Of a stretch of 64,000 bases of DNA, positions 247-4,906 are shown one piece after another. Every line of letters starts with the position of its first letter. The stretch's first letter is position 1. The translations under genes and the position numbers were made by a program. The notes below the pieces were generated by a model. That model was given only the letters and a program-made list of their open reading frames with translations. It had not been told where the DNA came from and did not search any database. The stretch covers positions 219,931 through 283,930 of the forward strand of contig JAUJOR010000002.1 of NCBI GenBank assembly GCA_030447525.1, written 5' to 3'. The stretch comes from Chloroflexota bacterium (GTDB lineage Bacteria; Chloroflexota; UBA11872; UBA12225).

Positions 247-978
247 ATGGGCATCTTAGACCGAATGTCGACCATCTTGCGCGCCAACATTAACGCCATG
301 CTCGACCAGGCCGAGGATCCAGAGAAGACGCTCGATCAGCTGATTCGTGATATGGGCGACGCCATCGGCCAGGCGCGCGGACAGGTGGCTGAGATGATCG
401 CCCAGGAAAAGCTCCTGGAAGCGGATATGGAGCGGAATAACAGCCTCGCCCGGGAGTGGGGTCAAAAGGCCGAGCTGGCTGTCAGCCGGGGGGCCGACGA
501 CCTGGCCAAGGAAGCCTTGCGCCGCAAGATTGACTACGAACGCAACGCCCATGCCTATGCCAGCCAGCTCCAGTCGCAGCAAGAGGTGGTGTTCAAGCTC
601 AAGCACGACCTGGAGCAGCTGGAAACCAAGTATGAGGGTGCTGTCCGCAACCGGGAGGCCCTGATCTCCCGCCATCGCCGCGCCGTTGCCCAGCAGAAGG
701 TGGCCCAGACGGCGGCCCAGCTGAACACCATGGACCCCACATCTGAGCTGGCACGCATGGAAGACCGCATCCGCATGGAGGAGGCCCGGGCCGCCGCCAT
801 CACGGAGGTAAACCGCCGTTCCAGCCTGGAGGATCAGTTCTCTGCCCTGGAAGGGGACAGCGAGCTTGACCGCCAGCTGGCCGACCTGCGGTCAAAGGTA
901 CGGGGCGGGGCATTGCCCGGCGGGGACCAGCCGGCAAGCCTCCCCGGCAGCACCACCCCTCCCGGCTCCGGTTCCTAG
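247..978 (+). CDS. pspA: PspA/IM30 family membrane-stress protein
   Basis: A 243-residue, almost wholly helical protein starting MGILDRMSTI, the typical PspA/IM30/Vipp1 opening with an N-terminal amphipathic helix. Residues about 20-205 form long charged heptad-rich coiled coils; the tail after about 210 is Gly/Pro/Ser-rich and probably disordered. PspA-family proteins are peripheral membrane proteins that oligomerise on the inner leaflet and protect it under envelope stress. The ATG follows AAGGATAGGTGAA. No pspB/C or PspF-like regulator is adjacent, so control is not evident. The gene is single and converges on the cytochrome operon. Confidence 0.93.
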   Translation: MGILDRMSTILRANINAMLDQAEDPEKTLDQLIRDMGDAIGQARGQVAEMIAQEKLLEADMERNNSLAREWGQKAELAVSRGADDLAKEALRRKIDYERNAHAYASQLQSQQEVVFKLKHDLEQLETKYEGAVRNREALISRHRRAVAQQKVAQTAAQLNTMDPTSELARMEDRIRMEEARAAAITEVNRRSSLEDQFSALEGDSELDRQLADLRSKVRGGALPGGDQPASLPGSTTPPGSGS

Positions 979-1101: not shown

Positions 1102-1141
1102 GCTTAGCGTAGCGTCTCCAGGCTTAGCGTAGCGTCTCCAG
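1102..1141. repeat. Perfect 20-bp tandem duplication across the cytochrome c stop codon
   Basis: GCTTAGCGTAGCGTCTCCAG occurs twice with no gap (1102-1121 and 1122-1141). Read on the minus strand, the upstream copy encodes the last residues (LETLR), the TAA stop (1126-1124) and two more bases. The other copy repeats this as untranslated sequence, out of frame. Confidence 0.95.
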
Positions 1142-2002
1142 GTAGGAGGCAATAGCCTCGAGGTATTCATCGCGCAGGTTGTAGGGGGGCATGGTCGTCC
1201 CCGGCTTATGCTGCGCCGGGTTGGCCACCCATCGCTTCATGTTCTCACGGGTAAAGTCCAGCACCCCGGCGATACGGCGATTGGCGATCCCGTCCAGGGC
1301 AGGGCCGACGGTCCCCCGAGCCGACGTCCCGGCCACGGCGTGGCAGGATGAGCAGGCCCCCGCGGTTACGATGAGCTTGCCCGTGGCCACCGGATCGGTG
1401 ATCGGGGCTTCCGTGGGTACGGCAACGCTCTCGGCCCGGATGATGTCCGCCACCAGGTCCCAGCGCCCGCCGGTGATCAAGAGGTTGATCTCGTTGATCA
1501 TCTCGTAGTTCAGCGGGCCACCGTTGCTCACGCCCCAGGCCGGCATCACCGCACCGCGGCCATTCTCCACCGTCTGGGCGATCATCTTGACGTTGGCCTT
1601 GTGCTGGTCGGCATCGTTCGACTGGAGCTCCGGTGTGTTCAAGGGCTTGCCTGGGAGGCTGACGTTCTCTAGATAGCCCTTGCCCTCGGCCCCGTGGCAG
1701 CTAAGGCAATACTGAACGTAGGTGTGCGCCCCGTTGTGCTGGGCGAACTCGAGCTGGCGCTCCGCCGCCTGGGTCTGGCGGAAAGGCTCGTTAGCCCCGT
1801 AGGCCATGAAAAGCAGGAAGCTTTCCACCAGGACGACCATGGCCAGGAGGATCTTGCGGCTCATGCCCGAAGTGCTGAGCACGGGATCGATCTGCGTGTC
1901 CGGCGCATCGGCCGGGACGGTGACGCGTCGTGTGCGCCAGATCTCTGCCAGCACCAGCACCGGTAGCAGCAGGGCTCCGAGGACGATAGCCAGCGTCAGC
2001 AC
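1124..2002 (-). CDS. Membrane-anchored diheme cytochrome c of the cytochrome bc complex
   Basis: 292 residues. Two hydrophobic helices (about 1-20 and 47-68) anchor two cytochrome c domains outside the membrane. Heme sites are CLSCH (about residue 98) and CSSCH (about 217); likely Met ligands lie in VMPAWG and TMPPYN. It is last in the operon cyt b - cyt b C-terminal subunit - Rieske - cyt c, so it probably takes the place of cytochrome c1/f and passes electrons from the Rieske cluster to a terminal oxidase or soluble carrier. The GTG start at 2002 is preceded by AAGGAG at good spacing and chosen for that. The stop region carries a 20-bp tandem duplication. Confidence 0.9.
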   Translation of the reverse strand: MLTLAIVLGALLLPVLVLAEIWRTRRVTVPADAPDTQIDPVLSTSGMSRKILLAMVVLVESFLLFMAYGANEPFRQTQAAERQLEFAQHNGAHTYVQYCLSCHGAEGKGYLENVSLPGKPLNTPELQSNDADQHKANVKMIAQTVENGRGAVMPAWGVSNGGPLNYEMINEINLLITGGRWDLVADIIRAESVAVPTEAPITDPVATGKLIVTAGACSSCHAVAGTSARGTVGPALDGIANRRIAGVLDFTRENMKRWVANPAQHKPGTTMPPYNLRDEYLEAIASYLETLR

Positions 2003-2032: not shown

Positions 2033-2563
2033 CTAGACACGCAAGGCCTGGCTGGGGTCATAGCTCTCGCGCTTCCTGATCGCCCCGGTATCCACCACCA
2101 ACCGCCCCCCCTCGTTTGAGATGCGCATGTAGTCAAGGGGGCGGGGCGCCGGGCCAAAGACGATCTGCCCGTTCTTGAGGTACGTTGAGCCGTGGCAGGG
2201 GCAGCGAAACCACCCCCGGATGGCCTGCCCTTCATAGATGAACTCGAACTCCGGACGCCAGGGCACGGTGCACCCCAGGTGTACACACTTCTGGTACAGG
2301 GCCATGAAGCCCTCCTCCAGGCGCACGAGGTAGAACTTCCCGTCCACGAAGTACTTCACGTCCCCCACCTGGTAGTCGGTAGGGGCGCCGACGGATACCC
2401 GGCTTCCAAAGGTGCCCAGCTTGCGGGGCCAGAAGAAAATGATAAAGGCCACGGCCGCCTGGAGACTGATGATCGCCATCGTCCCCCACCCGGCGAGGGC
2501 CAGGAAATTCCGCCGTGTCCCGGTTGTCGCCCCACCACCGACGCTCGCTTGCGCTGCTGCCAT
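2033..2563 (-). CDS. Rieske [2Fe-2S] protein of the cytochrome bc complex
   Basis: 176 residues with a twin-Arg-like N-terminus (TRRNFLALAGWG) and one membrane helix (about 22-45), then a Rieske fold with both cluster motifs, CVHLGC and CPCHGS, giving the two Cys and two His ligands. GPAPRPL near the end is the usual proline loop. It takes electrons from quinol at the Qo site of cytochrome b and hands them to the diheme cytochrome encoded 30 bases downstream. Length and arrangement fit b6f-type Rieske proteins. The 158 bases before the next gene upstream hold no clear reading frame. Confidence 0.95.
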   Translation of the reverse strand: MAAAQASVGGGATTGTRRNFLALAGWGTMAIISLQAAVAFIIFFWPRKLGTFGSRVSVGAPTDYQVGDVKYFVDGKFYLVRLEEGFMALYQKCVHLGCTVPWRPEFEFIYEGQAIRGWFRCPCHGSTYLKNGQIVFGPAPRPLDYMRISNEGGRLVVDTGAIRKRESYDPSQALRV

Positions 2564-2721: not shown

Positions 2722-4032
2722 TTACCCGATCCGATTCATGCCCCTGTCCCATGGCCAGAACAGCTCCATGCCCTGGCCCCGGAACGCGCTGCCGATGATA
2801 GCCAAGAGCACCCAGGTCACGGCAAAGGCGGTGAAGTACGCGATCATCACCTCCCGCACGGTGGGCCGGGTGGGGGCGATGATCAGGTACAAGCCTACGG
2901 ACACGGCCCAGATGATCGCCGTGGGCACCATCGTCTGGGTGACGATCTCAGACAGCCAGGCGGTCTTCAGGAAGGGGAGGGCAGTCTCGACTGAAGCCCG
3001 TATCCCGATGACCTTATCGATCATGATCAAGGCCAGGTTCATTACCGTGGTGTAGATGGCCGAGATCCAGAATACCCGCCTGCCCCGTGCCCCGCTGAAC
3101 CAGACGCCTGTCTCATCCGAGTTGATATCCAGGTATGGGATAGCCATCAACAGGACGACGGCCAGCGTAGGAATGATCACCCCGGCCAGGGCTGGATGCA
3201 TGTGCAGCAAGAGCTCCTGGAGGTTGAGGAAGTACCAGGGGGCCTTGGACGGATTGGGCGTGCGGTTGGGGTTGGAGTGCTCCTCCAACGGGGCGTTGAT
3301 AAACCAGGCCATCACCGTCAGGCCGATGATGAGCAGCACGGACGATATGAACTCCGGCATGAGCAGGTGAGGCCAGGTGGTGAGTTGGGCCTGCGAGCGT
3401 CGAGCTGCCGAGCGCTGCGCGGTGCGCGACACCTGGGCCCCAGGGGCCGCCGGCGTGGCCGGTCGGGCGGGGGCCGGGCGTCCGGCGCCGTTGGCCCGCC
3501 CACCGGCTGGAGCGGGGGCCGGTGGGCGGGCGGGCCGGGAGGTGCCCCCCGTCGTTGGTCCACCCGTGGTCTGCGTGACCGCTGCCTCGGCCCGTACCGC
3601 GGGGGAGCTGGCGGTGACCGCCGCCGGCTGGCTTAGCTCCCCGGTAGCGGCCAGGTCGGCAGCCGGCGCGGCCGGGGCAGAGATGACCGGTGGGGGCTCT
3701 GCCGTGGCCGCTGCCCCTTCGGTGCTTGTGACGTGAGCCGGGGCCGGCGTCCCATCCCCCGCGGCCGGCGCCGTCGACGGCCGGGCCGCACCCGCCGCCG
3801 GCCGGGCGCCGCGGTGGAGGACGTTGGCCGGAGTACCGTCGACGGCGCACTTGTTCCCGTTGTCCGCCCAGCAGTCCCGGTGCTGTGGGGTGTAGCACTT
3901 GGGACAGAGCACAGCCTGCTCGCCCGGCTGGATCGGCTTGCTGCACTTGGGGCAGGTGGAGCCTGCCCACTTCGACTCCGCGGTCGTCTGTCGAACGGAG
4001 ATTAACGCCGGCTTGGACCCGTCCGCAGCCAT
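2722..4032 (-). CDS. Cytochrome b C-terminal (subunit IV-like) domain fused to an N-terminal RING-like zinc domain
   Basis: 436 residues in three parts. Residues about 27-62 hold CPKC, a second CPKC, then HRDC and a final C: a treble-clef/prokaryotic RING-like zinc site. Residues about 75-215 are a Pro/Ala/Thr-rich linker. Residues about 222-436 match the C-terminal half of cytochrome b (b6f subunit IV) with four hydrophobic segments; the Qo-site PEWY motif appears as APWYF, a variant I associate with other bacterial split cytochromes b. It sits between cyt b6 and Rieske genes, so it completes the quinol-oxidising b subunit. The ATG follows AAGGAG and GAGGAG, so the zinc domain is translated in the same protein. 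The extra domain would face the cytoplasm; its role is unknown. Confidence 0.88.
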   Translation of the reverse strand: MAADGSKPALISVRQTTAESKWAGSTCPKCSKPIQPGEQAVLCPKCYTPQHRDCWADNGNKCAVDGTPANVLHRGARPAAGAARPSTAPAAGDGTPAPAHVTSTEGAAATAEPPPVISAPAAPAADLAATGELSQPAAVTASSPAVRAEAAVTQTTGGPTTGGTSRPARPPAPAPAGGRANGAGRPAPARPATPAAPGAQVSRTAQRSAARRSQAQLTTWPHLLMPEFISSVLLIIGLTVMAWFINAPLEEHSNPNRTPNPSKAPWYFLNLQELLLHMHPALAGVIIPTLAVVLLMAIPYLDINSDETGVWFSGARGRRVFWISAIYTTVMNLALIMIDKVIGIRASVETALPFLKTAWLSEIVTQTMVPTAIIWAVSVGLYLIIAPTRPTVREVMIAYFTAFAVTWVLLAIIGSAFRGQGMELFWPWDRGMNRIG

Positions 4033-4144
4033 CTCCTCAGCGCTCCTTCTTGTACCGTTACCGTTTCTACTGTGCTCGCCCCGTGGGGATCAGCCGCTGA
4101 GGCGCTGCTATCGCGCTCTCGAGCGTGATTCTGAAAGGCCGAGG

Positions 4145-4906
4145 CTACAGGGGCTGAGAGATACCGCCGTCCTGCCGTACCCGCCAGAAGTGCACCGCCA
4201 GGAAGAGCGACAGCACCAGCGGCAAGGCGATAACGTGGAGCGTATACCAACGGATAAGGGTGTTTTGCGAGATCTCGTAGTCCGCCAGGAGAAGCAGATT
4301 AACCTGGGGGCCGAGCAAGGGCGCCGCACCTCCCAGCGTGGCACCTACGGTGATGGCCCAGAAGGCCAGCTGGTCCCAGGGCAACAGATATCCGGTAAAA
4401 GAAAGGAGCAAGGTCAAGACAAACAAGATCACCCCTACCACCCAGTTGAACTCGCGTGGTGGCTTGTACGACCCGGTGTAGAAGACTCGGCACATGTGGA
4501 GGAACACGGTGATGACCATACCGTGCGCCGACCAGCGGTGCATGTTCCGCATCAGCATGCCAAATGTGACTACGGTCTCTAAGTCCTTGATGTCCTGATA
4601 GGCCCGAGTTACCGAAGGGACGTAGTAGAACATCAGCAAGACGCCGGTGACCGTCAGGATCAAGAAGAGCATGAACGACAGCCCCCCCAGGCACCAGGTA
4701 TAGGTCACCCTGATGGCGCCACGGGGCACGAAGTTAGGGTGCAGATGGAGGAAGACGTTCTTGGCTACCGTCATGATCCGGTTGCGCCGGTCAGTCGGGT
4801 AGCTGTAGCGGAAGATTGAGCGCCACAGGCGGCTGTTCCGCACGAACTCCGATACCTGCGTCGAGGTCGGCACCCGCACCTTAGGCGCGCCTACTCGGCT
4901 AGCCAC
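4145..4906 (-). CDS. Cytochrome b6-like N-terminal cytochrome b subunit
   Basis: 253 residues with about four membrane helices and the paired heme-binding histidines of cytochrome b: [10 protein letters not shown] and [11 protein letters not shown] on one helix pair, [10 protein letters not shown] and [12 protein letters not shown] on the other. The conserved GYLLPWDQ loop lies between. It provides both b hemes and, with the separately encoded subunit IV-like protein, forms the quinol-oxidising core. The GTG start at 4906 is preceded by GGGAG at 8 bases. It is the first gene of the four-gene operon; a -10-like box lies about 100 bases upstream. Confidence 0.95.

Follow-up and report, generated by a model that had tools for sequence, protein, structure and literature searches.

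A RING-on-arm module shared by subunits of complex III and 11-subunit complex I in a Chloroflexota lineage suggests a respiratory docking system

In cytochrome b6f and other split-b complexes, subunit IV (PF00032; petD-like) is encoded in an operon with the cytochrome b N-terminal half, a Rieske protein and a cytochrome c, and has a membrane half with a Qo loop. The locus analysed here has the same operon and membrane half, but its subunit IV (SubIV) starts with a RING domain and a linker of ~130 aa, and carries APWY instead of PEWY. The RING is closest to Prok-RING_1 (PF14446), with which it shares the cross-brace ligand order C2-C2-HC-C(x2-D / x4-C) and, in its model, the RING fold, all three paralogues of this genome scoring above the gathering threshold. 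It differs from Prok-RING_1 in that all copies in the family of this genome have Thr or Ala in place of the eighth and last Cys, with a conserved Asp or Glu at C62+3, and in that it is fused to respiratory subunits together with an extra conserved N-terminal strand, ISxRxTxxxSKW, preceding the RING. One of these subunits is the NuoC of an 11-subunit complex I, which has the known gene set and order without nuoEFG (PMC11238625, PMC5736913) but whose NuoC bears the RING-linker module. A precedent for a long N-terminal extension of NuoC is found in NCBIfam NF005832 (430 aa, with the NuoC part at 303-413), although no relation to the RING was seen in the match. Nothing relevant on a RING with a bc complex, NuoC with a zinc finger or a Chloroflexota supercomplex was found in open-access papers. 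To our knowledge, an accessory domain common to subunits of complex I and complex III is unprecedented.

A RING domain fused to subunit IV of a split-b bc complex

The window, that is, the whole 64,000-nucleotide stretch of Chloroflexota DNA that was analysed, encodes SubIV as a single open reading frame preceded by a good ribosome-binding site, as the earlier note had stated (Table 1). The gene runs on the minus strand; the note had named no strand. Its same-strand neighbours, a cytochrome b N-terminal half, a Rieske subunit and a two-haem cytochrome c, identify the gene as subunit IV of a split-b bc complex, and the membrane half itself matches PF00032 (Cytochrom_B_C; residues 253-324, E 4.9e-6, 27.1 bits against a cutoff of 20.7). 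This half contains five hydrophobic segments in a Kyte-Doolittle scan, with an Arg-rich stretch entering the first membrane helix and the Qo-loop motif APWY. In a Pfam search, residues 24-63 were assigned to the prokaryotic RING family Prok-RING_1 (E 1.4e-11, 44.6 bits against a cutoff of 29.1), so that PF14446 and PF00032 lie in frame in one ORF, and the fusion is as unusual for the family as had been proposed. The zinc motif had also been read exactly as C2-C2-HC-C (C27-x2-C30, C43-x2-C46, H51-x2-C54, C62), and the length given for the Pro/Ala linker before the membrane part was correct; of the 127 linker residues (79-205), 40 are Ala and 22 are Pro. An example of an N-terminal peptide of the full-length protein is PALISVRPTTAESK.

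Table 1 Features of the bc operon region in the window
Feature	Position	Strand	Description
SubIV gene	2722..4032	-	RING-linker-cytochrome b subunit IV, 436 aa; ATG at 4032
Conserved N-terminal module	3799..4011	-	residues 8-78: beta-strand ISVRQTTAESKWAG + RING
Linker	3415..3798	-	residues 79-206; Ala/Pro/Gly/Thr-rich; predicted disordered; orthologues differ in length
Cytochrome b C-terminal half (subunit IV)	2725..3414	-	residues 207-436
Qo-loop motif SKAPWYF	3232-3249	-	SubIV residues 262-267
Ribosome-binding site AAGGAG	4043..4048	-	10 nt upstream of SubIV ATG
Cytochrome b N-terminal half (cytochrome b6-like)	4145..4906	-	
Rieske iron-sulfur subunit	2033..2563	-	
Membrane-anchored cytochrome c	1124..2002	-	two CxxCH haem sites
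PspA/VIPP1-type membrane-stress gene	247-978	+	

The RING part was modelled as a single chain with AlphaFold (AF2) at a pLDDT of 82, and the top PDB matches of this model in Foldseek are the RING domains of RNF13, RNF38, RNF12 and RMR1 (probability 0.97-1.00, TM about 0.5-0.6, E only 0.008-0.04). The N-terminal module, as modelled, is a RING fold; a PDB sequence search with the module returned no significant relative. In the full-length model, which is poor overall (47.9) and was used for the linker only, the linker has a pLDDT mostly below 50. SubIV offers seven Cys/His ligands and D65, a conserved acidic residue and candidate eighth ligand; a C-x2-D ending is known in RBX1. Judged by its residues, the NuoC copy of the sister family appears to have all eight ligands.

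Selection, paralogues and distribution of the module

The RING part is under purifying selection, with dN/dS of 0.05-0.25 in most SubIV pairs and up to 0.46 in the most diverged, and with 0.82-0.96 amino-acid identity in close pairs, so it is translated; constraint on the linker is much weaker (dN/dS about 0.14-0.75), and its length varies. A translation start after the linker as the sole source of product is ruled out by these RING-part ratios together with the conservation of the module, and an assembly or frameshift artefact by the identical fusion in independently assembled genomes.

Within the order, 11 genomes, all draft assemblies, carry the module, nine of them with the SubIV core. No orthologue starting at the first membrane helix was found there: the RING or a remnant of it is present in all eight intact SubIV orthologues, and in the ninth (G010), where the contig breaks off within the gene, the last RING cysteines and the linker are still visible.

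The genome of the window (G000) was found to contain exactly three significant copies of the module, and no further RING-bearing subunit was detected in it at E <0.1. The two other RINGs are 55-58% identical to the SubIV copy and score 43.4 and 40.6 bits against Prok-RING_1. One belongs to a NuoC, encoded on the same contig 14.8 kb past the window's end and composed of a RING (E 3e-11), an Ala/Pro linker and Complex1_30kDa (PF00329, E 3e-30); its operon, nuoA-B-C-D-H-I-J-K-L-M-N, is that of an 11-subunit complex I. A second nuo operon of the same genome is of the 14-subunit type with nuoEFG, and its NuoC has no RING; an EFG-bearing operon likewise accompanies the RING-bearing one in two other genomes (G009 and G005). 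The third copy lies in a protein of ~190 aa consisting of a RING, a linker and one C-terminal membrane helix preceded by Arg-Arg, the C-terminal part of which has no Pfam match. SubIV is therefore one of three module proteins spanning two respiratory complexes, a relation beyond the view from the window alone. Recent gene conversion among the three is unsupported, with third-position identity between paralogues only 0.47-0.54. A test for co-variation of RING residues within genomes was not significant; the single suggestive site is residue 50, which is Gln in all three copies of this genome and His in the other copies of the family.

The same three RING proteins occur in other members of the family, those genomes with fewer being incomplete drafts. 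In this family and its sister family in the same order (represented by G009), the module sits on both complexes, and across the order no intact SubIV or intact 11-subunit NuoC was found without a RING or a remnant of one. In a more distant family of the same class, SubIV (G033, G024 and G015) has no RING: its start lies close to the first helix, or it forms one protein with the cytochrome b N-terminal half. The 11-subunit NuoC (G036) is also without RING, the matches to nuoB and nuoC being just 117 nt apart. Both complexes would thus have gained the module after the split from this distant family and before the common ancestor of the other two, unless the distant family lost the set. The sister-family orthologue of the one-helix protein (G009, L153/L154, C6:66.6 kb) has 77 aa, no RING and no Pfam match. 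By these comparisons, both complexes appear to have received the module as an addition specific to this lineage, and so does the third protein in the family of the window, unless the sister family lost it there. In a tree of the RINGs, built on 70 columns and with a long branch, the SubIV and NuoC RINGs of the sister family cluster together (support 97/95) and not with their orthologues, and one clade per subunit is disfavoured (p-AU 0.033 and 0.021). This grouping is a hint, and would fit either within-genome copying or concerted change.

The relatives are MAGs labelled Chloroflexi, UBA2235 among them, and their isolate names point to lakes (Baikal, La Plata), groundwater and further habitats; at class level, UBA2235 is an uncultured Chloroflexota lineage (PMC10608941). 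Outside these genomes, a pattern scan of 84,980 species recovered no relatives. In a sample of 400 genomes of the phylum, the RINGs from outside the order were all distant ones and sat on other proteins, most of them membrane proteins. In two genomes of another Chloroflexota family (L143 and L144; G168 C34 and G371 C1), two neighbouring genes each carry a distant RING of similar kind, the better match per genome consisting of a RING, a linker and one membrane helix. In other Chloroflexota proteins (L130, L132 and L133), an N-terminal RING of this kind occurs together with a single membrane helix and, at the C terminus, a domain resembling SH3 by eye.

Ligands have been lost from two copies in a patterned way. 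SubIV of the sister family (G009) lacks ligands 1, 2 and 6, and the one-helix protein of another genome (G003) lacks ligands 1, 2, 5 and 6, which are three and all four of the site-1 ligands, respectively; both retain ligands 3, 4 and 7. By hand calculation, the chance that all losses hit site 1 is about 4/56 x 1/35 = 0.002. This pattern fits a cross-brace with two separable zinc sites, and the joint loss of site-1 ligands on two occasions, with site 2 and the domain kept, suggests that the scaffold matters more than the site-1 metal.

Possible role as a cytoplasmic docking head

The loop that precedes helix E in bc complexes lies on the cytoplasmic side, and the Qo loop on the periplasmic side. 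Since APWY comes after the first SubIV helix, the SubIV RING should lie in the cytoplasm, where NuoC, a peripheral-arm subunit, also resides; the Arg-Arg before the single helix would place the third RING there too. We infer from these features that all three RING heads face the cytoplasm, at the membrane. Of the cytoplasmic zinc module proposed in the earlier note, the fusion stands as one under coding selection, and its cytoplasmic side is a prediction of this topology.

The shared RING-on-arm module on complex III, 11-subunit complex I and a small membrane protein suggests a docking system at the cytoplasmic face of the respiratory chain, which seems to be undescribed in the open-access literature. 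We give a probability of about 0.4 to the reading that the RING is a cytoplasmic docking head whose RING-RING or shared-partner contacts join the 11-subunit complex I, the split-b bc complex and the small anchor. A flexible Ala/Pro arm of roughly 60-140 residues would carry the head and set its reach, the head would make protein-protein contacts, and contacts between RINGs or to one shared partner, which could be a fourth protein, would produce a loose supercomplex; zinc would be structural and dispensable at site 1. This reading would explain a common head on unrelated subunits, a long loose arm beside a conserved head, and a bare anchor with that same head. It builds on the presence, coding selection, conservation and taxonomic spread observed above, from which location, binding and supercomplex formation are extrapolated. 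A docking site had been one of the roles suggested from SubIV alone, and it has gained in likelihood with the same module on NuoC and a third membrane protein. A stricter form, a bacterial respirasome tether in which the homologous RING heads of complex I, complex III and the free anchor assemble with one another on the cytoplasmic side and draw the 11-subunit complex I and the bc complex into clusters, is possible but doubtful. Through the shared module, the joint organisation of respiratory complexes in bacteria becomes open to tests that start from sequence. Moreover, it marks the 11-subunit and not the 14-subunit complex I of one cell, giving a lead on the associates of the 11-subunit enzyme.

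It is unlikely, though worth weighing first among the alternatives, that the RINGs do not bind one another and instead recruit one common soluble cytoplasmic protein, such as a regulator or the electron donor of the 11-subunit complex I. The position of NuoC in the peripheral arm and the 14-subunit NuoC without RING would suit such a partner. So would the lack of an NADH module in the RING-bearing complex I, a type of enzyme whose electron donor is an open question (PMC11238625). However, a donor to complex I would not explain why a quinol oxidase and a one-helix protein bear the same head, and no candidate partner gene is co-located across all genomes. We consider it distinctly less probable that the RING serves as an assembly or quality-control handle, which a chaperone or membrane protease would grip while the two complexes are being built. 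This would account for an identical tag on unrelated subunits, and the one-helix protein gene adjoins groEL in both G000 and G009, though the G009 version has no RING; but most other genomes do not retain the position beside groEL, and the handle gives no clear reason why the 14-subunit complex I does without a RING.

A redox or zinc sensor tuning quinol turnover, which the earlier note had also raised, has become improbable: seven Cys/His ligands are conserved in most copies, but the domain outlived the loss of three site-1 ligands in one paralogue and four in another, and a scaffold that survives without site 1 weakens a sensing role. About as improbable is neutral spread, in which a mobile 5' segment was copied onto three genes with no common function, for although domain copying clearly happened and the third protein gained or lost the module, the RING is under purifying selection and is retained in every intact member of the order. 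An E3-like function within a ubiquitin-like system of bacteria, to which the name of the Pfam family could point, is highly improbable, since despite the resemblance of the fold to E3 RING domains, the E2-contact hydrophobics and linchpin Arg that characterise these domains were not seen in the RING sequences, Lys, His or Arg stands between the first two Cys, the eighth Cys is lost throughout the family of the window, and a search of the 11 genomes for E2 proteins (PF00179) gave no match, a weak point as a control search was equally silent.

The Qo motif and neighbouring genes

A PEWY-type Glu at the Qo site is common, though not universal. This Glu is missing from the Qo motif in all SubIV orthologues of the window's family and its sister family, and the more distant family has xPWF variants; the altered motif may give rise to unusual quinol-site chemistry. 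In NCBIfam, the sole match of SubIV is to ExtQ, below threshold, and the cytochrome b N-terminal half scores above the cutoff for ExtP of a selenite/tellurite reduction operon (298.8 against 290 bits) even though the operon is of the Rieske/bc type, so that automatic naming may mislabel this protein. The bc operon and the PspA/VIPP1-type gene converge tail-to-tail, an arrangement also retained in the six relatives of the family that were examined.
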